A stretch of DNA of 50,071 nt. Source: Synechococcus sp. CCY 9618. GTDB taxonomy: Bacteria > Cyanobacteriota > Cyanobacteriia > PCC-6307 > Cyanobiaceae. Shown piece by piece: positions 15,814-28,085 of this stretch. Below the pieces are notes generated by a model that saw nothing but the letters and a program-made list of their open reading frames with translations, was not told the DNA's origin and made no database searches. The first letter of the stretch is position 1. Each line of letters starts with the position of its first letter. Both the position numbers and the translations under genes were made by a program. The stretch is from NCBI RefSeq assembly GCF_019038415.1, contig NZ_JAFKRG010000005.1, forward strand, positions 1 through 50,071, written 5' to 3'.

Positions 15814-17061
15814 TCAGTCGTCGCTGCGCTCGCCGATCAGGGCCTCGTAGGCCCTGCAGAAGTCTTCGCCCAGGGCCTCCCGCAGGGGTTCGTCATGGCG
15901 GAAGGCCTCCAGGGCATCCGCCTGACTGGTGGGCAAGGCTCTGGCCCCCACCGGCGGCTCGATGTAGGTGTTGACATCGCTGCGGGTTCCGGGCTCCAGA
16001 CCACGCGCGATGCCGTCGAGGCCCGCCGCCAGGACGGCGGCCTGGAGCAGGTAGGGATTGGCGGCGCCGTCGCCGAGGCGTAGCTCGATCCGCTGGTCGT
16101 CGGGGATGCGGACCATGTGGGTGCGGTTGTTGCCGCCGTAGCTGATCCAGGAGGGTGACCAGGTGGCCCCCGACGTGGTGACCGAGCGGGCCAGCCGCCG
16201 GTAGCTGCCGGCCACCGGATTGGTGAGCGCGCACAGGGCGGGCGCGTGGGCCAGCAGCCCGGCCAGGAAGCGGTAGGCCAGTTCCGACAGTCCCTTCTCC
16301 CCGGAGGGGTCGTGGAACAGATTGCGCCCCGCCGCATCCCACAGGGAGGCGTGCAGGTGGGCGCCGTTGCCGGTGAGTTCCGGAATCGGTTTGGGCTGGA
16401 AGCTGACCCTCACCCCGTGCCGTTCCGCCAGGGCGGCGGCCATCACCCGGAAGAAGGCGTGCCGGTCGGCGGTGACCAGGGCTTCGGCATAGGTCCAGTT
16501 GAGTTCGAACTGGCCGTTGGCATCCTCGTGGTCGGCCTGGTACGGGCCCCAGCCGAGGCTTTCCATGCCCTCAAGCAGTTCGCTGATCAGCGGATAGTGC
16601 CGCATCAGGGCCAGCTGGTCGTAGCAGGGCTTGGCCTGCCGGTCGAGGCTGTCGGCGATGGTGTCCCGCTCCCGGTCCATCAGGAAGAACTCCGCTTCCA
16701 CGCCACTGCGGAACTGCAGGCCCATGGCTGCCGCCCTGGCGATCTGACGCTGGAGCACCCGCCGGGGCGACTGCTCCAGCATCTGTCCCTCCACCTGCAG
16801 ATCGGTGGCCACCCAGGCCACTTTGTGCTGCCAGGGGAGCACCATCAGGCTGGCGGGGTCGGGGATGGCCAGCACGTCCGGGTCGGCGGGCGTCATGTCC
16901 AGCCAGGCGGCGAAACCGGCGAAGCCGGCACCGGATCTGGCCAGTTCGGCGGCCGCGGAGGCGGGCACCAGCTTGGCCCGCTGCACGCCGAACAGATCGC
17001 AGAAGGAAAACAGGAAGTGGCGGATGCCGTGGGTGGCGGCGTAGCGGGCCAGGTCGGTCAT
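15814..17061 (-). CDS. GlnT-like glutamine synthetase family ligase (second copy)
   Basis: The 415-residue protein starts MTDLARYAATHGIRHFLFSF. GS-fold motifs are present: GVEAEFFLMDRE (metal-binding Glu), DHEDANGQFELNWTYAEAL, LTGNGAHLHASLWD (catalytic loop), TNPVAGSYRRLA, and NNRTHMVRIPDDQRIELRLG with substrate-binding arginines. It belongs to the TIGR03105/GlnT-like group often labelled type III glutamate-ammonia ligase, which includes gamma-glutamylmethylamide synthetases. True acceptors may therefore be amines rather than ammonium. It is third in a leftward unit after a desaturase and an alpha/beta hydrolase. It differs clearly from the GlnT-like protein at 24138-25502 and should not be taken as housekeeping GlnA. 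Confidence 0.82.
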   Translation of the reverse strand: MTDLARYAATHGIRHFLFSFCDLFGVQRAKLVPASAAAELARSGAGFAGFAAWLDMTPADPDVLAIPDPASLMVLPWQHKVAWVATDLQVEGQMLEQSPRRVLQRQIARAAAMGLQFRSGVEAEFFLMDRERDTIADSLDRQAKPCYDQLALMRHYPLISELLEGMESLGWGPYQADHEDANGQFELNWTYAEALVTADRHAFFRVMAAALAERHGVRVSFQPKPIPELTGNGAHLHASLWDAAGRNLFHDPSGEKGLSELAYRFLAGLLAHAPALCALTNPVAGSYRRLARSVTTSGATWSPSWISYGGNNRTHMVRIPDDQRIELRLGDGAANPYLLQAAVLAAGLDGIARGLEPGTRSDVNTYIEPPVGARALPTSQADALEAFRHDEPLREALGEDFCRAYEALIGERSDD

Positions 17062-17119
17062 CGGGGCGGGTCGGAGGTGAAAGGGGGTGGCGGAGGGGGG
17101 CGGGAGGGCCGCCGGAGGC

Positions 17120-18151
17120 TCAGATGGTGCAGAGGCGTTCCACTGCGGCCCGCAGCTGTCGCTGCTCGGCCGGAGCGTCCCGGGGATTGCCGGCCCGGTG
17201 GCCCAGGTCGGACTCCAGCACTTCGAAATGGGCACCGGGGATCATGGCGGCTTCGGCGGCGCAGTCCTCCGGAGTGAAGTAGAGGTCGTGGCGCCCGGCG
17301 ATCACGGCGCTGCGGGCCTGGATGCGGCCCAGGGCCCGCGCCAGGTCGGCGTCCGGGTCCCCCGAGGCGATTCCCGCTGCGGCGGCCACGTCGTTGGCCA
17401 GCCAGATGTCGAGCATGGCCAGCAGGTCGTGGGGGTCGTGTCGCCGGTAGGCCGGCAGCCAGGCCTGCTCCACATAGGCATCGACGCTGGAATAGCCGAG
17501 ATCCTGATGGGCGCCGCGGCGGTAGAAGGGCTGGCTCGCGGCCCAGCTGGCGTAGATCAGGGCGAAGGTGCGCAGCCCCTGCTCCGGCACGCCCCGGAAG
17601 CGGCTGCCGTCCCAGGCGGGATCTGCTGTGAGCGCCTGGCGCAGGCTGAGCAGGAACACCCGGTTGTGGGGCGTGGTGCGGGCGCTGCCGCAGACGCAGC
17701 AGATCCGCCGGGTCCGCTCCGGCTCCAGCACCGCCCAGTGGTAGGCCTGCTGGGCGCCCATCGACCAGCCGTAGATCAGGGCCGGAGAGGTCACTCCGAA
17801 GACCTCCTCCAGCAGCCGGAGCTGGGCGGTCACGTTGTCGCGATGGTCGACGGGCCAGCGTCCGCCGGCCAGACCAGGCTCCCCGGTGCTGGGGCTGCTG
17901 GAGCGGCCGTTGCCGAACTGGCTCACCAGCACCACGCACCAGCGCGCCGGATCGAGGATCGGGCCCACCACCCAGTCGATGTCCTCGGGCCAGGCGCCGT
18001 AGGAACTGGGGTAGAGCACCAGGTTGGAGCGGTCGGCGGCCAGGGTCCCGTAGACCCGGTAATCAAGGCAGGCGCCAGGAAGAATCGCCCCGCTGGCCAG
18101 GAGAAGATCTCCCAGGGCGAGGCGGCGAGTTGAGGCGGAGGCGGTCGGCAA
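17120..18151 (-). CDS. Alpha/beta hydrolase of the homoserine O-acetyltransferase family
   Basis: The 343-residue protein has an HTA-like layout: GACLDYRVYGTLAADRSNLV, a long SSYGAWPEDIDWVVGPILDP stretch, VVLVSQFGNGRSSSPST, the nucleophile elbow LIYGWSMGAQQAYHWAVLEP near residue 128 (Ser in G-W-S-M-G), GRHDLYFTPEDC with the acid residue near 290, and LESDLGHRAG with the catalytic His near 315. Family members transfer acyl groups or hydrolyse esters. Linkage to a GlnT-like ligase (58 bases downstream) and a desaturase (24 bases upstream) suggests a small pathway of acylated or amidated metabolites, but the substrate is unknown. Confidence 0.85.
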   Translation of the reverse strand: MPTASASTRRLALGDLLLASGAILPGACLDYRVYGTLAADRSNLVLYPSSYGAWPEDIDWVVGPILDPARWCVVLVSQFGNGRSSSPSTGEPGLAGGRWPVDHRDNVTAQLRLLEEVFGVTSPALIYGWSMGAQQAYHWAVLEPERTRRICCVCGSARTTPHNRVFLLSLRQALTADPAWDGSRFRGVPEQGLRTFALIYASWAASQPFYRRGAHQDLGYSSVDAYVEQAWLPAYRRHDPHDLLAMLDIWLANDVAAAAGIASGDPDADLARALGRIQARSAVIAGRHDLYFTPEDCAAEAAMIPGAHFEVLESDLGHRAGNPRDAPAEQRQLRAAVERLCTI

Positions 18152-18175
18152 GGGAGGGGGGACCGGCGGGGAGCG

Positions 18176-19159
18176 TCAGGGAAGGGCCAGTCGGGCGGGA
18201 TTGCCGAGGAAGCTGCGATGCACGGCCAGATAGCCCGGGTCGCAGTGCTCCATGCGGGGCGCCAGATGCGTGTGGGCTTCGGCCAGGGCGTGGAACGGGA
18301 GGGAGGGATAGAGGTGGTGTTCCACGTGGTACGGCATCTGCCACATCAGCCAGCGCAGCGGGGCCAGGGTGCGGGTGGTGCGGGTGTTGCTGAGGCCGTC
18401 GGTGCTGGTGCTGCAGCCACCGTGTTCGGCCATCAGAACGAAGCGCAGCAGGGGCTGGCCGACGGCGAGGGGCAGCAGCCAGAACCACAGGACGGCGCCA
18501 TTGCCGTGCCAGAGGGAGGCCACCAGCAGCGCCCCGTAGACGCAGAACTGCAGTCGGAGCGAGCGGGTGACCGCCTCGGTGGCCTCGGCGGGGATGTAGG
18601 GCCTGCCGCCGAAATCACCCCGCAGCCCTGCCGCGTGGCCCCGGATCTTGCCGATCCACCAGGGAAGGCCGCTGAGTTCGAGCAGATAGCTCCCGAGGCT
18701 GCCGGGGGGGGCGTCCTCAAGCTCCGGATCCAGGCCGGGCTGGTGGGTGTAGCGATGGTGCCACTGGTGGTAGCGGCGGTAGTAGTCGGCGTTGTAGAAG
18801 CTCAGCACCCCTGCCCACCAGGCCACCGTGTCGTTGAGGTCCTTGCCGATGAAAGCCGTGCGATGGCCGCACTCGTGCATGGCGCAGAAACCGAAGGCCA
18901 GTCCCCAGCCCAGGAGCAGCAGACCGCCCAGCCGCAGGGCCCAGAGACCTGCGCTGGGCATCGAAGGGATGGCCAGCGCCTCCATGGGCGCGCCCCAGAG
19001 CACGGCACCGAGCAGCAGCACCGCGCCATGGAAGGCCAGGCGGCGCCAGCCCGGACCGTCGCGCCGCTCGTTCAGCCGGCGCAGCAGGGGACCGGCCAGC
19101 AGGGGGGGAGCCGCAGGGGAATCGGTGGCCGGCGGCGCGGAAGGGATGGAGGCGGTCAC
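18176..19159 (-). CDS. Membrane fatty acid desaturase family protein
   Basis: Three histidine boxes of di-iron membrane desaturases are intact: HECGHRTAF, YHQWHHRYTHQPG and YHVEHHLYPSLPFHALAEAH, with hydrophobic segments between (WALRLGGLLLLGWGLAFGF; LWHGNGAVLWFWLLPLAVG). The last box is HVEHH as in type-2 desaturases and related hydroxylases. I take GTG 19159 as start (VTASIPSAPP); an ATG at 19243 would add 28 residues, and neither has a good ribosome-binding site. It leads the leftward unit with the alpha/beta hydrolase and GlnT-like ligase, which is not a usual lipid-gene neighbourhood, so the substrate might not be a bulk membrane acyl chain. Confidence 0.85.
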   Translation of the reverse strand: MTASIPSAPPATDSPAAPPLLAGPLLRRLNERRDGPGWRRLAFHGAVLLLGAVLWGAPMEALAIPSMPSAGLWALRLGGLLLLGWGLAFGFCAMHECGHRTAFIGKDLNDTVAWWAGVLSFYNADYYRRYHQWHHRYTHQPGLDPELEDAPPGSLGSYLLELSGLPWWIGKIRGHAAGLRGDFGGRPYIPAEATEAVTRSLRLQFCVYGALLVASLWHGNGAVLWFWLLPLAVGQPLLRFVLMAEHGGCSTSTDGLSNTRTTRTLAPLRWLMWQMPYHVEHHLYPSLPFHALAEAHTHLAPRMEHCDPGYLAVHRSFLGNPARLALP

Positions 19160-19326
19160 GGAGGGGCGGCGGATGCTGCGGATTCTGGTCGCCGACCCCA
19201 CTCTCCCGCTTGGCGTCAGCCCGCCACCGTTCCCTGCGAACATTCACTGTCCAGCCATTCTGGGAGGGCATGGACACCGGCCCCATCCCGCTGCCCGGGA
19301 AGAGTGGCAGGCACCGCACTGACCGG

Positions 19327-20187
19327 ATGGCTTCCCTCCTGTTCTTCTCCCTCTGGGGTTTTGAAGGCTCCCTGGCCCTGGCCCTGGAGACGGCCCGCCG
19401 GGGCGTCTTCGATGGGCTGGAGCTGAACATCCGCCATCCGGCCCTGCTGGGCGACGGGGACGCCCCCGGACGGCTGCGGGATGCGGGCAGGCCCCTGGTG
19501 CTGGAGGTGGTCACCGGCGGCGGCTACGTGCCCGACCTCGCCTGGAGCCCGGCGCAGCATCTGCGTGAGCTCGGCGAACGGCTCGACGCCTGCGCTCCCC
19601 TGGATCCCCATCGGGTGACCGTGCTCACGGGCAGCGATGCCTGGCCCTTCGAGCTGCAGCGGGATTTCCTGGCACAGGCCCTGGCGCTGGTGGGCCGCAC
19701 CGGCCTGGCGGTGAGTTTCGAAACCCATCGCTCCCGCTGCCTGGGCATGCCCTGGACCATTGCTTCCCTGCTGGACGCCCTGCCGGACCTGCGGCTCACG
19801 GCCGATCTCAGCCACTGGTGCGTGGTGGCCGAACGGTTGATGACCCCGGATCTGGCACCGGTTCAGGCCATGGCCGACAGGGTCGACCACATCCACGCCC
19901 GGGTGGGCCACGCCCAGGGGCCCCAGGTGTCCCATCCCTTCGCGCCCGAGCATGGCGAGGCCCTGGCGGCCCATCTGGCCTGCTGGCGACTGTTCACCGA
20001 CCGGGCCCTGGAACGTGGGGCACTGCCGCCGAGCTTCACCCCCGAATTCGGTCCGGACGGGTACATGCCCACCCTGCCCTTCACCGACCGGCCGGTGGCC
20101 GATCTGCTGGAGATCAACACGGCGATGGCGGACTGGCTGCGGAACACCCTTCGCCGTGCAGACGGAGATAAGATGTGTTCACACTGA
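19327..20187 (+). CDS. Sugar phosphate isomerase/epimerase-like TIM barrel protein
   Basis: From ATG 19327 the 286-residue product reads MASLLFFSLWGFEGSLALAL, GLELNIRHPALLG, GRPLVLEVVTGGGYVPDLAW, then VSFETHRSRCLG, LRLTADLSHWCVVAER and RVDHIHARVGHAQGPQV, ending with FTPEFGPDGYMPTLPF. The E-T-H, D-L-S-H, H-x-R and P-E metal-binding positions match the xylose-isomerase-like (AP endonuclease family 2) barrel. The substrate is unknown. It is divergent from the desaturase unit. The frame is open to 19210 but the extra N-terminus looks non-coding. Confidence 0.82.
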   Translation: MASLLFFSLWGFEGSLALALETARRGVFDGLELNIRHPALLGDGDAPGRLRDAGRPLVLEVVTGGGYVPDLAWSPAQHLRELGERLDACAPLDPHRVTVLTGSDAWPFELQRDFLAQALALVGRTGLAVSFETHRSRCLGMPWTIASLLDALPDLRLTADLSHWCVVAERLMTPDLAPVQAMADRVDHIHARVGHAQGPQVSHPFAPEHGEALAAHLACWRLFTDRALERGALPPSFTPEFGPDGYMPTLPFTDRPVADLLEINTAMADWLRNTLRRADGDKMCSH

Positions 20188-20200
20188 ACGGACAACTACC

Positions 20201-20446
20201 GTGATTGACCTCCTTGATCAGCCCGTTGCAGCCGAGGCCGGCGGCGATCAGGTCGTGGACCGCCGGTCTGAGGACCGCTGGACTGAAGTGATTGGCCAGG
20301 ATGGGGATCCCCGTCGCGCCGCCTTCATCGCCTCCCTGCGGGCCCGTTATGCGGTCGCCGAGCAGCGCCGCGATGCCGATGCCAAGCAGGCCCTGTTCAA
20401 GGAGGCCGCCTACCTGGGCATCCGTCCCGAGGCGTACCAGGGCTGA
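20201..20446 (+). CDS. Small conserved hypothetical protein
   Basis: An 81-residue protein read from GTG 20201 (VIDLLDQPVAAEAGGDQVVD), with a charged helix AAFIASLRARYAVAEQRRDA and a conserved-looking ending LFKEAAYLGIRPEAYQG. It starts 14 bases after the isomerase stop. I recall similar short proteins in picocyanobacteria but cannot name the family. Its last 37 bases overlap the convergent Rieske gene; both frames look genuinely coding there, though one of the two ends could be misassigned. Confidence 0.55.
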   Translation: MIDLLDQPVAAEAGGDQVVDRRSEDRWTEVIGQDGDPRRAAFIASLRARYAVAEQRRDADAKQALFKEAAYLGIRPEAYQG

Positions 20447-21483
20447 AGCAGCTTCGCGTAAATCGCCTGCTGGTGAAGGATGCGGGCCTCCAGCCGGTGG
20501 GGAGGCCCCGTGCGGAAACCCTCCCCGTAGCCCCGCTGGGCTGATTCCACCAAGGCGCGGTCCTCGGCCAGGAAGTGCACCATCTCGGCCATCAGCGCTT
20601 CGCCTTCGGGCTGGAGCTCCCGGGGTCCCAGCAGCCACACCTGCATGCGGCAACGGTCGATGGTTTCGGGAACGAACTGGATCATGGCCTGGCGCCCATC
20701 GGGCCACAGCAGCAGATGGTTCCAGGGGGGAAGTCCGAAGGTGAGGAATTCCCCTGCTCCGGTAGTCGGTTCGGCCCACGGCGTGGCCAGCACGTTGGCC
20801 CAGGCGCCGAAGCGATGGCCGTAGTGCTTCACCGGGCCCTGCAACCGGTGCAGGGTGGTGGGGTGGGCGATGGCGACGTGGTAATCGTCGAGGGTGTTGT
20901 CGTGGGCGATTTTCCAGTTGCAGGCCAGGGTTCGCTCGTGAAAGGCCAGGAGCTCCAGGGGGTTCCTCAGGGCTGAGGTGGCTTCCTGCAGGGGCAGATC
21001 GAGCTGGTCCTCCAGGGGGATGGGATTCACCCCCGGGGCCACCCAGATCAGGGAGGCAAGCAGCCGGCAGTCGAGATCTTCCAGCGGCCAGGCACTTCGG
21101 TCGAAGGGGTCGACGAATTCCGATTCCCGCGCCGCCGCCATGAGCCGGCCTTCGAGGTCGTAGGTCCAGCCGTGATAAGGGCAGACCAGCCTGCGGCAGG
21201 CCACGGTGCCCTGGCCCGGCTCCAGGAAGGCCACCGCCCGATGGGGGCAGCGGTTGCGGAAGGCCCGGACGATGCCATCGCTGCCGTGGCAGATGAGCAC
21301 GGAAAGTCCCAGCACGTCCACGGCCCGCACCTGTCCCACGGGCAGGTCGGCAGCGGCGGCGACGGGGTGCCAGAACCGCGATGCGTAGTGTTTCCGCTCC
21401 AGGGCGGCGATGGCTTCGGAGCGGTAGAGCTCCGGCGGCAGGAAGCTGGCCACAGAGGAGGATCTGACTGGGGCGGTCGGCAT
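20410..21483 (-). CDS. Rieske non-heme iron oxygenase (choline monooxygenase/GbcA-like)
   Basis: The 357-residue protein begins MPTAPVRSSSVASFLPPELY. It has a Rieske domain with RNRCPHRAVAFLEPGQGTVA and RRLVCPYHGWTYDLEGRLM (C-x-H ... C-x2-H cluster ligands near residues 80-105). The catalytic domain carries CNWKIAHDNTLDDYHVAIAH, supplying the D-x-x-H-x4-H mononuclear iron triad with the bridging Asp. This resembles choline monooxygenase and betaine/carnitine N-demethylases. Enzymes of this group hydroxylate N-methyl or alkyl groups, often causing dealkylation. Lying 11 bases after the ABC ATPase gene, it appears to be the last gene of the guanidine operon; substrate inference (methyl- or alkylguanidine) is a hypothesis. 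Confidence 0.88.
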   Translation of the reverse strand: MPTAPVRSSSVASFLPPELYRSEAIAALERKHYASRFWHPVAAAADLPVGQVRAVDVLGLSVLICHGSDGIVRAFRNRCPHRAVAFLEPGQGTVACRRLVCPYHGWTYDLEGRLMAAARESEFVDPFDRSAWPLEDLDCRLLASLIWVAPGVNPIPLEDQLDLPLQEATSALRNPLELLAFHERTLACNWKIAHDNTLDDYHVAIAHPTTLHRLQGPVKHYGHRFGAWANVLATPWAEPTTGAGEFLTFGLPPWNHLLLWPDGRQAMIQFVPETIDRCRMQVWLLGPRELQPEGEALMAEMVHFLAEDRALVESAQRGYGEGFRTGPPHRLEARILHQQAIYAKLLQPWYASGRMPR

Positions 21484-21494
21484 GGATGGGGGCC

Positions 21495-22262
21495 TCAGAG
21501 CAGGGCGCCGTCCAGGCCGCGCAGGCAGCTGGCCAGCTCCTCCCGCATCTCCAGGAAGGGCTGGGACACCCTCAGGTGGCGCAGATCGGAGCGATCCAGC
21601 TGGACGTCGACGGTGTGCACGATCCGACCGGGACGCGGCGCCATGATGTGCACGGTGCCGGAGAGCAGCAGGGCCTCCTCGATGTCGTGGGTGATCAGCA
21701 GGGCCGTCAGTCCGGTGCGGCGCCACAGGTCGTGGAGGAATTCCTGCATCGATTCCCTGATCTGCAGATCGAGGGCCCCGAAGGGCTCATCCAGCAGCAG
21801 CACCTTGGGCTCGGTGGCAAGGGCCCGGGCGATGGCCACCCGCTGCTGCATCCCGCCGGAGAGTTCCCTGGGCAGACGCCGTCCTGCCTCCGCCAGGCCG
21901 ACAACGTCGAGGAAGTAGGCGGTGCGTTCGCGGATCTCTGGCTTGGGCCTGCCCTGGAGGCTCATGCCGAAGGCGACATTCTCGGCCGCCGTGAGCCAGG
22001 GATAGAGGCTGTACTTCTGGAACACCATGCCGCGGTCGGAGCCGGGGCGACGCACCGGCTGGCCATCGAGCTGGATCGTGCCAGAACTGGGCCGGTCGAG
22101 ACCGGCGATCAGGCGCATGACAGTGGATTTTCCGGAGCCCGAGCTGCCCACCAGGGCCATGAACTGACCGGACACCAGTTCGAAATTGATGTCATCAAGG
22201 ACCAGCTTGCTGTCCCTGCCCTCTCCGAAAGTCTTGGAAACCTGAGATACCTGGAGGTGCAT
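21495..22262 (-). CDS. ABC transporter ATP-binding protein (guanidine-type importer)
   Basis: A 255-residue SsuB/TauB/NrtD-class ATPase: Walker A ALVGSSGSGKSTVMRLIAGL near residue 40, Q-loop GMVFQKYSLYPWLTAAENVA, signature PRELSGGMQQRVAIARALA, Walker B VLLLDEPFGALDLQ and H-loop LLITHDIEEAL. It powers import with the permease five bases upstream. The riboswitch-led operon and GdmH point to guanidine or a derivative as cargo, in line with the importer genes that follow gdmH-hypA-hypB in Synechocystis (sll1080-1082), although this class of ATPase alone does not define the substrate. Confidence 0.93.
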   Translation of the reverse strand: MHLQVSQVSKTFGEGRDSKLVLDDINFELVSGQFMALVGSSGSGKSTVMRLIAGLDRPSSGTIQLDGQPVRRPGSDRGMVFQKYSLYPWLTAAENVAFGMSLQGRPKPEIRERTAYFLDVVGLAEAGRRLPRELSGGMQQRVAIARALATEPKVLLLDEPFGALDLQIRESMQEFLHDLWRRTGLTALLITHDIEEALLLSGTVHIMAPRPGRIVHTVDVQLDRSDLRHLRVSQPFLEMREELASCLRGLDGALL

Positions 22263-22267
22263 GGTGT

Positions 22268-23044
22268 TCAGTTGGCCCAGGAGCAGGCACGCCGCATCAG
22301 AAAGCGGAAGCCCAGATCAATCATCAATCCGATCAGACCGATCACAATCAGGCCCACGAAGATCTCATCGGTGCGCAGGAACCTCTGGGCAAGGCTGATG
22401 CGCTTACCCAATCCTTCATTGGCGGCCACCAGTTCGGCCACAATCACCAGGTTCCACGCGGAGGCCATGTTGATCCGGTAGGTATCGAGCACCTGGGGGG
22501 CGATGTAGGGGGCAACGACCCGGGTGAGGATCGGCAGACCGCGCCCGCCGAGGGTGAGAGCGGTTTCCACGAGCTCGTGGGGAACGAACTTCACGGAATC
22601 CATGATCATCAGGGTATTGAAGAAGAAGGTGCCGATGAAGATCAGCATGACCTTCGGCAGCTCCTCCAGGCCGAAATAGATGATCAGCAGTGGAATGAAG
22701 GCCGGTGCTGGCATGTAACGGATCAGGGCCATCAGCGGCTCCAGGAAGCGGCAGATCAACCGGTTCGTCCCCATGGCGATGCCGATCGGCAGGGCCAGCC
22801 CGGCGGAGAGGATGAACCCCAGAAAGACCCGCCTGATGCTGGCCACCGCATCGTTCACCAGGATGCCGCCGCGAAACTGGTTGGTTCCCGCTTCCCAGAC
22901 CGTCCCCGGGCTGGGAAGGAACAGCTTGTCGACCGTGCCGCTGGAGGTGACGATCAGCCATACCAGGAACACCGTGAGAATGCCCAGAGTCCCGAGGACC
23001 CAGGGGTGAGAGAAGGAGCGCCGCAGAGCAGGAGACCAGGTCAT
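22268..23044 (-). CDS. ABC transporter permease (guanidine-type importer)
   Basis: A 258-residue inner-membrane protein with about six helices, e.g. VLGTLGILTVFLVWLIVTSS near the N-terminus, RRVFLGFILSAGLALPIGIA, FIPLLIIYFGLEELPKVMLI and IFVGLIVIGLIGLMIDLGFR near the end. The EAA-type coupling loop is represented by ALTLGGRGLPILTRVVAPYI. It belongs to the SsuC/TauC/NrtB type. It starts 5 bases after the binding-protein stop and ends 5 bases before the ATPase start, so the three importer genes form a tight unit. Confidence 0.92.
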   Translation of the reverse strand: MTWSPALRRSFSHPWVLGTLGILTVFLVWLIVTSSGTVDKLFLPSPGTVWEAGTNQFRGGILVNDAVASIRRVFLGFILSAGLALPIGIAMGTNRLICRFLEPLMALIRYMPAPAFIPLLIIYFGLEELPKVMLIFIGTFFFNTLMIMDSVKFVPHELVETALTLGGRGLPILTRVVAPYIAPQVLDTYRINMASAWNLVIVAELVAANEGLGKRISLAQRFLRTDEIFVGLIVIGLIGLMIDLGFRFLMRRACSWAN

Positions 23045-23049
23045 CGGAT

Positions 23050-24057
23050 TCAGCGGGCGTTGTCGACGAACTGGGACGGCAGCAGATTGCTGAGGTCGGG
23101 AGCCTTCTGGATGAGCTTCGAATCCACCAGGAAATCGCTGATCTTCCCGGCGGCGAAAGGCAGGGACAGCATGGTGTCGCCGTCCTTGAAGGCCTGACGG
23201 TTTTCTTCGAGGGTGAAGATCGTGGTGCCGGCGGCATACTCCTTGAATTCAGGCTCGCTGACGCCGGAGCGCTCCACCAGGATCGGCAGGGTGCTGGCGG
23301 GATCGTCCTTCATCGTCTTGAGGGTGGCGAACCAGGCGTCGACGATCTTCTGCACCTTCTCAGGGTTCTGGGCGACGAATTCGGTGCGGCACACCAGGTG
23401 GTCGGTGATGGCTCCCGGGAAATCCTTCGAGGTGAACAGGGCCTTGCTTCCCGGGCGCTTCAAGGCCTGGGTGGTGAAGGGGGCATAGACGCCGGCCGCA
23501 TCCACCTTGCCGGCGGCAAAGGCGGCGGCGGCGGCCCCGGTTTCCAGCGGCACGAATTGCACGTCATCGACCGTCAGCCCTCCTTTCTCCAGCACCAGAA
23601 GCAGCAGGTAGTGGTCGACCGTTCCCTCCTCGACCGCCACTTTCTTGCCTTTCAGATCGGCGATGGAGGTGATTCCTTCGGCCACGATGATCTGGTCATT
23701 GCCGGTGGACTGGTCATTGGTGAGCACCACCTGCAGATCGGCTCCGCCGGCGACGGAACTGATCGTGTCATTGAGGGTCTGACTGTTGCAGTCGAGCTGG
23801 CCCGCGCTGAGGGCGTTGATCGAATCCAGATAACCGTCGAACCACTGCATCGACACCGGTACACCAGCCTTATCAAAGAGTCCCTTCTCTTCGGTGACCT
23901 TCCAGGGGAACCAGCCAGGCCAGGCGCTGTAACCGACTTTCACGGGAGTTTCCTGCTGGGCGGCCTGCTGGCAACCTGCCAGAAGACCGCCCCCCAGGGT
24001 GGCGATCAGGGCCAGTGAGAGGGCCCGGCGGCGGCGGAAGATCTTGACGTGAAGCAT
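23050..24057 (-). CDS. ABC transporter substrate-binding lipoprotein (guanidine-type importer)
   Basis: A 335-residue protein with a lipoprotein signal: basic MLHVKIFRRRRALSLALIAT, hydrophobic core and lipobox LLAGC (Cys near residue 28). The mature part starts TPVKVGYSAWPGWFPWKVTE and has the NrtA/SsuA-like architecture with LDCNSQTLNDTISSVAGGAD, LTNDQSTGNDQIIVAEGITS and LKGKKVAVEEGTVDHYLLLL. Several Asp, Asn, Glu and Trp residues could form a cation-binding pocket, which would fit a guanidinium ion better than a sulfonate or nitrate. It lies 80 bases after the GlnT-like gene, the largest gap inside the operon. Confidence 0.9.
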   Translation of the reverse strand: MLHVKIFRRRRALSLALIATLGGGLLAGCQQAAQQETPVKVGYSAWPGWFPWKVTEEKGLFDKAGVPVSMQWFDGYLDSINALSAGQLDCNSQTLNDTISSVAGGADLQVVLTNDQSTGNDQIIVAEGITSIADLKGKKVAVEEGTVDHYLLLLVLEKGGLTVDDVQFVPLETGAAAAAFAAGKVDAAGVYAPFTTQALKRPGSKALFTSKDFPGAITDHLVCRTEFVAQNPEKVQKIVDAWFATLKTMKDDPASTLPILVERSGVSEPEFKEYAAGTTIFTLEENRQAFKDGDTMLSLPFAAGKISDFLVDSKLIQKAPDLSNLLPSQFVDNAR

Positions 24058-26623: not shown

Positions 26624-27838
26624 CTATCTCCAGGCGCGGTCGACCTGCATGTTGCAGTCGCTGGAGAGCCAGGCGGGCACGGCCTTGCGGGGCAGCTGGC
26701 CGCTCACCACCAGGTGGGCCATGGTGTCGCAGATGACCCGGGTGGCCATCAGGGAGGTCATGTCGCTGACGTCGTAGGGAGGCGACACCTCCACCACCTC
26801 CAGGCCGCAGACCGGCACGTTGCGGACGATCAGCTCCAGCAGCTTGAGGGCTTCGCGGGGCAGCAGCCCACCCGGTTCGGGCCAGCCGGTGCCGGGAACG
26901 AAACCGGCATCGATGCAGTCGATGTCGAAGGAGATGTAGACGCAGTCGGTGCCGTCGGTGGCCCGCTCGATGGCGAACTTCGCCGCCGCCTCCAGACCCA
27001 TGTCGCAGATGTCGGTGACGGTGAGCACGTTGGTGCCCCGCTCGCGGCAGACCTTCACCCCTTCCCGCGGCACCTGCCAGCCGCCGATGCCCAGCTGCAC
27101 GAGGTTCTCGGCCGGAGCATTGGCCATGTTGGTGGCGTGGAACCACGGGGTCGTGTGCATGCGCTCGTCGAGGTCCATCTCCTGGGTGTCGACGTGGCGG
27201 TCGAAGTGGATGATCCCCACCTTCTTGTCGCCCAGATGGCGGCAGACGCCTCGGACCGTGGGGAAGCCGATCGAGTGGTCGCCGCCAAGGATGATCGGGA
27301 AGGCGCCGCTGGCGAAGACATGGGCGATCCCTTTGGAGATCTGATCGAAGCTCTTCTCGTTGTTGGCGGGGATGGTGAAGATGTCGCCCACGTCGCAGAG
27401 GGTGATCTGTTCGCGCAGATCGACCCCCATCTCGTAGTTGTACGGGGTGTAGAGGGCGGAGATGCGCCGGATCCCCTGGGGACCGAAGCGGGTCCCGGGC
27501 CGATAGGTGGTGCCGCTGTCGTGGGGAACCCCCACCACCGCCACATCAAACTCCCCGACCCGGTTCACGTCCTCCAGGTAGGGGGCTTTCATGAAGGTGT
27601 TGATGCCCGCGTAGTGGGGCAGCTCGCCTCGGGAGAAGGTGGAGATGCGGCGGTCGACGATGCTGCTCGCCGCCTCCAGGCCGAAGCGGTGGCCCTGGTC
27701 CACCTCCTGCTGCCAGCCCGTCAGAGGCAGGGCGGTCTCCTTCTCCATGGCCCTGGCTCCCTCGGTGCCAGGAGGGTGATCAGCACGAACGAAGGCACCG
27801 GCTGCATCGGCCGCATTGCCGCTGGACGGATCGTTCAT
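26624..27838 (-). CDS. gdmH: Nickel-dependent guanidine hydrolase, GdmH type (ureohydrolase fold)
   Basis: From ATG 27838 (MNDPSSGNAADAAGAF, with AGAGG-like purines just upstream) the protein has 404 residues. Ureohydrolase metal ligands are present: ILGGDHSIGF (185-189), IIHFDRHVDTQEMDLDERMH (about 210-227) and ISFDIDCIDAGFVPGTGWPE (about 303). The FDRHVDTQ and DAGFVPGTGWPEPGG variants, the long N-terminal extension, adjacent hypA/hypB and the upstream guanidine-I riboswitch all fit the GdmH family (Synechocystis Sll1077), which converts guanidine to urea and ammonium with nickel. Automatic annotation as agmatinase (SpeB) would be misleading. It heads the operon. Confidence 0.92.
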   Translation of the reverse strand: MNDPSSGNAADAAGAFVRADHPPGTEGARAMEKETALPLTGWQQEVDQGHRFGLEAASSIVDRRISTFSRGELPHYAGINTFMKAPYLEDVNRVGEFDVAVVGVPHDSGTTYRPGTRFGPQGIRRISALYTPYNYEMGVDLREQITLCDVGDIFTIPANNEKSFDQISKGIAHVFASGAFPIILGGDHSIGFPTVRGVCRHLGDKKVGIIHFDRHVDTQEMDLDERMHTTPWFHATNMANAPAENLVQLGIGGWQVPREGVKVCRERGTNVLTVTDICDMGLEAAAKFAIERATDGTDCVYISFDIDCIDAGFVPGTGWPEPGGLLPREALKLLELIVRNVPVCGLEVVEVSPPYDVSDMTSLMATRVICDTMAHLVVSGQLPRKAVPAWLSSDCNMQVDRAWR

Positions 27839-27864
27839 CAGACCTCTTGGCACGGTGGGAATGG

Positions 27865-28012
27865 GGCGGTCTCCCGGGCTTTTGTCCCTCCGTGCCACTC
27901 ACCCGGGGCAGCCGTGGAGCGGCCCCTGACGATGAGTGCGCTTCTCTCGGACCAGACATCCTGAAAAACGCCGGCAAGGCCAGCGTTGATGGATCGGAAC
28001 CCTAGAAGCAAA
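27865..28012 (-). promoter_or_regulatory. Guanidine-I (ykkC class) riboswitch
   Basis: Reading the minus strand from about 28012, the conserved blocks appear in order: CTAGGGTTCCG (near 28004-27994), a GC hairpin around CGCTGGCCTTGCCGGCG, CTGGTCCGAGAG (near 27950), a long GC-rich stem, and ACGGAGGGACAAAAGCCCGG followed by GAG, ending near 27871. These match the ykkC consensus block for block. The ATG of gdmH follows about 33 bases after the last block, so guanidine binding should switch the operon on. No clear terminator with a T run was seen, so control of translation or an atypical terminator is possible. Confidence 0.93.
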
Positions 28013-28085
28013 CTTCCGCAACTCAATCATCACCCCCCGTCGGGCAAGCAGATGTGACGGTTGCTACGGGAGAGGGCCGGTGGCT

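Follow-up and report, generated by a model that had tools for sequence, protein, structure and literature searches.

The Rieske-type oxygenase encoded at the end of the guanidine operon studied here is real, conserved and linked to guanidine metabolism; its function is predicted. In our main reading, to which we give a probability of about one half, it is a Rieske monooxygenase that belongs to a separate clade near the group of CntA, Stc2 and GbcA and would make free guanidine from a guanidino compound. That it acts on some guanidino compound is probable, and for the dealkylation of a small alkylguanidine in particular we regard the chances as evenly balanced. Few reactions are known to make free guanidine, and guanidine riboswitches and guanidine-degrading enzymes are widespread, as stated in excerpts of PMC12508155. 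A conserved oxygenase beside both degradation routes is a testable candidate for a guanidine source inside abundant phototrophs, and it could add a new substrate class to the Rieske N-dealkylases as well as give a function to an unannotated family of TIM-barrel proteins.

Two elements of this picture are already known. The presence of the Rieske gene in guanidinase clusters was described in 2023 (PMC10119275, excerpts), where most Synechococcus and Cyanobium genomes having the cluster carry a putative Rieske gene downstream of it; CK_00002251, the 'putative Rieske Fe-sulfur protein' of that work, is located behind the same cluster and, judging from how it is described, corresponds to the gene studied here. 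For this protein the excerpts of that paper propose only iron as a cofactor, and they contain no partner gene, carboxylase-linked relative or clade placement. The demethylation of methylguanidine by MgdH together with MgdL, MgdH being an unrelated 2-oxoglutarate dioxygenase, is known as well (PMC12508155, excerpts). The word 'Rieske' was not found in the text of that paper, and no claim of a Rieske alkylguanidine dealkylase was found among the titles and abstract openings listed in searches of the open-licence PMC literature.

The Rieske gene and its operon

The window, i.e. the whole stretch of DNA analysed (50,071 nucleotides of a Synechococcus sp. CCY 9618 contig), contains an eight-gene run headed by a guanidine-I riboswitch. 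The run is listed here in its order from gdmH to the Rieske gene, followed by a partner gene that is convergent with the latter:

27869..28016 (-), guanidine-I riboswitch at the operon head (RF00442, 78.4 bits against a cut-off of 63)
26624..27898 (-), gdmH, gdmH-type guanidine hydrolase of the agmatinase/arginase family (name from operon context and PMC10119275)
26210..26620 (-), hypA-like nickel chaperone gene (named by position and PMC10119275)
25502..26203 (-), hypB-like nickel GTPase gene (named by position and PMC10119275)
24138..25502 (-), type III glutamine synthetase-like ligase (TIGR03105, 566.5 bits)
23050..24057 (-), ABC substrate-binding protein, SsuA/NMT1 type
22268..23044 (-), ABC permease gene (named by position)
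21495..22262 (-), ABC ATPase gene, the immediate upstream neighbour of the Rieske gene
20410..21483 (-), Rieske non-heme iron oxygenase alpha subunit (357 aa; coding 20413-21483, stop 20410-20412)
19327..20187 (+), partner gene 'isom', predicted xylose-isomerase-like TIM barrel (longest ORF 19210-20187, start codon putative)

The intergenic gaps amount to 3 nt (gdmH-hypA), 6 nt (hypA-hypB), -1 nt (hypB-ligase), 80 nt (ligase-binding protein), 5 nt (binding protein-permease), 5 nt (permease-ATPase) and 11 nt (ATPase-Rieske), and the Rieske gene is indeed the last of the operon, as an earlier sequence-only reading had placed it. No terminator-like site was seen between the ATPase and Rieske genes in a scan of a kind that proves little. 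The listed GTG start of gdmH overlaps the riboswitch, so that the true start is probably located further in.

The frame of the Rieske gene is intact and runs uninterrupted from start to stop, and in a Pfam scan listing matches at E up to 0.01 its product hits only the models Rieske (PF00355, 64.5 bits), Ring_hydroxyl_A and, below threshold, VanA_C. The [2Fe-2S] ligands of the CxH and Cx2H pairs are present, C79, H81 and C101 in all 61 aligned relatives and H104 in 60 of them, with an X in the remaining row, which bears out the sequence-only reading with respect to the Rieske cluster. The 2-His-1-carboxylate iron site consists of H202, H207 and D308 (61/61 relatives), corresponding to H208, H213 and D323 of CntA. 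The same reading had located the whole iron triad in one motif, NWKIAHDNTLDDYHVAIAH; the triad is intact and both histidines are found within this motif in all 61 relatives, but the third ligand, D308, lies outside it. In its own genome the protein is the only PF00848 protein found, and one more match of the Rieske type, which is partial (30%, E 6.9e-7), is located on another contig (C46).

Among 19 gdmH-Rieske loci scanned for a guanidine-I riboswitch (window included), 14 have one at gathering score; at this score it is missing in L076, L077, L157, L160 and L165, the last three of which are of the Prochlorococcus type. Glutamine-II riboswitches were observed near guanidine/Rieske loci of picocyanobacteria (L257, L260, L145, L157, L160 and L165). 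Vreelandella offers a precedent for a methylguanidine demethylase encoded in an operon under a guanidine-I riboswitch (PMC12508155, excerpts), and because the riboswitch of that operon binds guanidine and not methylguanidine, the riboswitch class is no pointer to an alkyl substrate.

The closest solved chain of the glutamine synthetase-like ligase is a glutamate--methylamine ligase (9qur, 386 bits), a likeness that might be a second hint at N-methyl substrates, from a ligase that is not tied to the Rieske gene. As a general rule, a contribution of the ligase gene to the Rieske step was rejected because each gene occurs without the other: the gdmH loci L082, L085, L087 and L090 have the ligase gene without the Rieske gene, and the opposite is found in L073, L076, L081, several marine loci and the Prochlorococcus-type loci.

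Kinship with C-N-cleaving Rieske enzymes

The predicted model of the Rieske protein (pLDDT 90.8) shows both the Rieske and the catalytic domain fold. Its closest solved fold is CntA (Z 34.6, rmsd 2.5, 332 aligned residues, 25% identity), followed among characterised enzymes by Stc2 (Z 32.7); aromatic oxygenases come close behind (Z up to 31.7), and the fold alone is thus not decisive. A sequence-profile search again returned CntA and Stc2 as the first two enzymes, and since both of these nearest solved chains cleave C-N bonds, this type of chemistry is favoured. In a careful tree, from which the long-branched rows L240, L227, L231 and L248 were left out, the 17 guanidine-clade rows form a single clade (support 100/99) that groups with CntA, YeaW, Stc2 and GbcA-like rows and is split from four aromatic rows (100/99); in a quick tree including the long-branched rows, the guanidine clade is still single (support 99). 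A constraint uniting the guanidine clade with the Group V rows was not rejected (AU p 0.323), and the tree favours no particular branching order within the group. The phylogenetic placement suggested as a check by the sequence-only reading therefore puts the protein beside C-N-cleaving Rieske enzymes and away from aromatic ones. The same reading had named beforehand, as evidence against its proposal, a clustering with pigment-type Rieske oxygenases, which we take to be the PaO family. A pigment-type oxygenase was rejected: the Pfam scan yielded only the three models given above and no pigment-type family, and the tree was built without pigment oxygenases.

Group V Rieske oxygenases are marked by Tyr or Phe (Va) or by Asn (Vb) at CntA position 203 (PMC7948474), and some members have a Cys-x-x-Cys beside the iron (PMC10952381). 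The protein has its iron and Rieske ligands in common with the carnitine monooxygenase CntA/YeaW (Group Va), and the stachydrine demethylase Stc2 and GbcA (Group Vb) offer a parallel in their N-demethylation chemistry. However, position 203, Asn in Stc2 and GbcA, is Thr here (61/61 and 22/22 rows), and the two cysteine positions are occupied by Asp and Val (61/61). We therefore regard the protein as a neighbour of Group V that may work like a member and do not file it as one. Its best NCBIfam match is GbcA (NF058607) with 82.7 bits against a cut-off of 670, for 357 residues against a model of 420 positions, and orthology to GbcA or CntA was rejected by this score and by the signature residues. 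The earlier description as 'choline-monooxygenase/GbcA-like' accordingly holds for the fold neighbours but not for the residues at CntA positions 203 (Thr instead of Tyr, Phe or Asn) and 206 (Asp instead of Cys).

The substrate pocket of CntA was mapped onto the protein with an alignment of ~25% identity that is weak near gaps. CntA Y203, E205, C206 and C209 are replaced by T197, D199, D200 and V203, each in 61/61 rows of alignment A3, and Y225 and F319 stay Tyr and Phe in all 61 relatives. N270 and Y295 of CntA, both in polar contact with carnitine (PMC7948474), correspond to Leu/Ile and to Met/Leu/Ile in aligned relatives, and the loss of these residues would suit a small substrate without a carboxylate. 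A second subclade outside the 61 rows (L077-L079, L221-L225 and L097 of genome G081; Cys in three of the 22 rows of alignment A1 and, in addition, in L221-L225 and L097) has Cys at the position of D199 and keeps D200. A Cys at the bridging acidic position would be unusual for electron transfer, and from this subclade it follows that either D199 or D200 could be the bridging acid. It is possible that D200 anchors a guanidinium group in place of Cys206 of CntA, to which the ammonium group of the substrate is directed; we put this forward as a possibility because in the Cys subclade D200 may carry electrons instead. E300 was also considered as a guanidinium-binding acid and dropped, Glu being present in only 39 of the 61 rows.

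As the nearest solved relatives act on quaternary amines, the enzyme might demethylate or cleave a compound of the choline, betaine or carnitine type, or some other non-guanidino nitrogen compound, and share the operon only via general nitrogen scavenging. We consider this unlikely; where CntA has the aromatic residue that contacts its quaternary ammonium, 61/61 rows have Thr, and the Cys pair is absent, and the genomic evidence, presented below, bears on this explanation in both directions.

Linkage to guanidine degradation

A scan of the collection confirmed 142 relatives of the Rieske protein, and linkage was counted on the best 80 of these 142. In 78 of the 80 loci the gene immediately upstream, on the same strand, encodes an ABC ATPase, and the other two start at a contig end; gdmH is found upstream of the Rieske gene in 67, and in the remaining 13 the Rieske frame begins at most 3.9 kb from the end of the locus sequence. 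The labels of these best 80 loci include Synechococcus, Cyanobium and Prochlorococcus. Two records labelled Bifidobacterium breve and Acidiferrobacteraceae (L142 and L155) contain cyanobacteria-like gdmH-Rieske operons and are probably mis-binned.

In a phylum sample of 386 genomes, which was taken as one set for the Rieske, gdmH and partner-gene searches (the genome handles agree), members of the Rieske clade (at least 397 bits; four weaker matches of 140-167 bits in G156, G340, G409 and G083 excluded) are present in 19 genomes, and all 19 also have gdmH, which is found in 59 genomes overall (Fisher's exact test for co-occurrence 1.9e-17, kinship ignored). The Rieske gene is missing from 40 of the 59 gdmH genomes; thus guanidine use does not require it. 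Among 119 relatives, a clade member (at least 144 bits; four matches of 76-81 bits in G083, G089, G099 and G116 excluded) was found in 33, with gdmH in 31 of these, the exceptions being G017, a 64% complete genome, and G118. Within family f1, the Rieske gene is not listed for any of the 20 genomes in which gdmH is not listed either, and a single genome (G070) has gdmH but no Rieske gene. Two genera, g5 and g67, each include some genomes having both genes and others listed with neither, which indicates that gdmH and the Rieske gene seem to be gained and lost together.

The riboswitch at the operon head would also be in keeping with an oxidation of guanidine itself, or of a guanidine breakdown product, for detoxification, and N-oxygenating Rieske enzymes exist. 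Such an enzyme would, however, compete with GdmH, its characterised neighbours in the tree cleave C-N bonds, and gdmH genomes lacking the Rieske gene are common (40/59), which together make detoxification very improbable.

Genome G118 encodes a Rieske relative (38% identity) directly before a guanidine-I riboswitch (84.3 bits), which is followed on the same strand by genes for UAAP1, UAAP2 and a carboxylase of 1203 aa that scores 1844 bits with the urea carboxylase model; on the other side, an allophanate hydrolase and an ABC importer are encoded. UAAP1 and UAAP2 are presumably the two subunits of carboxyguanidine hydrolase. A search of G118 for gdmH gave no match. The carboxylase route comprises guanidine carboxylase, a two-subunit carboxyguanidine hydrolase and allophanate hydrolase (PMC12508155, PMC12186494, excerpts). 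The oxygenase thus accompanies guanidine genes of either route, for which a feeder enzyme is a better fit than a helper of GdmH, G118 being a single case. A role in nickel loading of GdmH is unlikely, the G118 relative being part of a carboxylase locus in which no gdmH was found. The tight co-occurrence with gdmH (19/19) and the carboxylase-type guanidine locus of G118 agree with the guanidine-linked role proposed from the sequence, and both of them, the latter through its guanidine-I riboswitch in a carboxylase-route genome, argue against a quaternary amine as substrate.

In three of the 19 clade genomes the Rieske gene is not located beside gdmH. In G412 the ABC genes, the Rieske gene and the partner gene form one unit ~165 kb away from gdmH, and in G172 the Rieske gene is the last of another ABC operon, with gdmH elsewhere, that contains an isochorismatase-type hydrolase distantly similar to biuret amidohydrolase (91 bits, cut-off 370). 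The oxygenase in these two genomes is therefore tied to the importer rather than to gdmH, and both arrangements would be compatible with the quaternary-amine explanation. In G276 the searched operon genes are all missing from the vicinity of the Rieske gene, whose neighbour is a heme oxygenase gene, and gdmH is located elsewhere. A run composed of an ABC importer, a biuret-amidohydrolase-like isochorismatase-type hydrolase and a Rieske relative, apart from gdmH, was also observed in L225 (7363-11906, reverse strand).

Proposed reaction and the TIM-barrel partner

In the alkylguanidine reading, the ABC importer would take up a small cationic alkylguanidine, with methylguanidine and N,N-dimethylguanidine as first choices and guanidinoacetate, creatine or taurocyamine as possible alternatives. 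Electrons would pass from a shared ferredoxin to the Rieske cluster and on to the iron of the neighbouring subunit, where activated oxygen would hydroxylate the carbon attached to a guanidino nitrogen. The resulting N-(hydroxyalkyl)guanidine would split into guanidine and an aldehyde, perhaps aided by the TIM-barrel partner, and the guanidine would be consumed by GdmH or, in G118, by guanidine carboxylase. A need for such a releasing step is suggested by the guanidinase of Nitrospira inopinata: urea formation was not detected with methylguanidine, creatine, arginine, guanidinobutyrate or guanidinopropionate, and agmatine yielded very little (PMC11410670, excerpts).

Unlike CntA/YeaW, the Rieske gene has no YeaX-like reductase gene nearby: a YeaX-type query found none in 121 loci (window plus L062-L181, not all of them with a Rieske gene), and the same query recovers its own sequence along with three frames in the reference loci L242, L246 and L248. 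The electron donor is likely a shared, probably photosynthetic, ferredoxin.

By sequence, the product of the partner gene matches nothing in Pfam, NCBIfam or the PDB, and its predicted model (pLDDT 90.9) has a sugar isomerase/epimerase TIM-barrel fold (Z ~20). E132, D160, H188 and E240 are invariant in 49/49 rows and are likely metal ligands. In the phylum sample, the partner gene is present in 14 of 386 genomes, which are exactly the 14 f1 genomes with the Rieske gene; it is not found in G070, which has gdmH alone, nor, at the same cut-off, in five clade genomes outside f1 (G165, G172, G227, G276 and G455). G081, also outside f1, has a relative of the partner (40%) directly after the 3' part of its Rieske gene, in the same orientation and at the end of a contig. 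Among the best 80 of the 142 loci, 52 contain the partner gene, 42 downstream of the Rieske gene and 10 upstream of gdmH. For the 28 loci without it, a whole-genome search located the gene elsewhere for L134 and L143 and in broken pieces for L144, and did not find it for L118 or for any of the 24 Prochlorococcus-type loci (two of them titled Synechococcaceae), whose assemblies are small and probably incomplete. The position of the partner gene varies (convergent, divergent before gdmH, or co-directional), yet it tracks the Rieske gene. In L144 (Aphanocapsa) it seems broken, with stops in its pieces, and the Rieske frame is open.

A close comparison is the MgdH/MgdL system of Vreelandella boliviensis (PMC12508155, excerpts), in which a guanidine-riboswitch operon with an iron oxygenase likewise converts an alkylguanidine to guanidine, a conversion that is predicted here. 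There, a second protein speeds the split of the hydroxylated intermediate, and by analogy we hypothesise that the partner might be a possible counterpart of MgdL that provides a losable accessory step of this kind. The proteins themselves differ, MgdH being a 2-oxoglutarate dioxygenase and MgdL a modelled beta-barrel in contrast to a Rieske enzyme and a TIM barrel here, and so does the downstream enzyme, which is guanidine carboxylase there and, except in G118, GdmH here. Quite tentatively, the Rieske oxygenase and a TIM-barrel lyase may form an alkylguanidine-dealkylating module of freshwater and marine cyanobacteria that is fed by photosynthetic ferredoxin, reduced to the oxygenase alone in Prochlorococcus, and that would have arrived at the MgdH/MgdL reaction independently, through unrelated proteins, beside both the GdmH and the carboxylase pathways. 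If this were true, alkylguanidines would be a real nitrogen source in lakes and oceans.

The fold of the partner and its four invariant residues would also suit an aldehyde or keto product, i.e. an oxidation of a larger guanidino compound (of the guanidinoacetate, creatine, taurocyamine, agmatine or arginine type) next to the guanidino nitrogen, which would release guanidine; the second product, an aldehyde or keto acid, would then be isomerised by the partner. Plant homoarginine 6-hydroxylases and EFE carry out the same chemistry (PMC12508155, excerpts). On the other hand, the residues that hold carnitine in CntA are not kept, as far as the weak alignment can be relied upon, and the partner was not found in 24/24 Prochlorococcus-type genomes with the Rieske gene, for which the small, probably incomplete assemblies must be considered. 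A larger substrate thus appears improbable to us compared with the small alkylguanidine favoured above.

The window contains a second module of three genes (15814-19243, reverse strand) encoding a desaturase-like oxygenase, a MetX-like hydrolase and a type III glutamine synthetase-like ligase. The oxygenase is fatty-acid-desaturase-like and weakly matches the arginine hydroxylase GntB (47.1 bits against 380), and the closest solved chain of the ligase is 7cql. The three genes follow a gdmH operon without Rieske gene in L083, and in L077 and L078 only the MetX-like gene of the three is located behind the Rieske gene.
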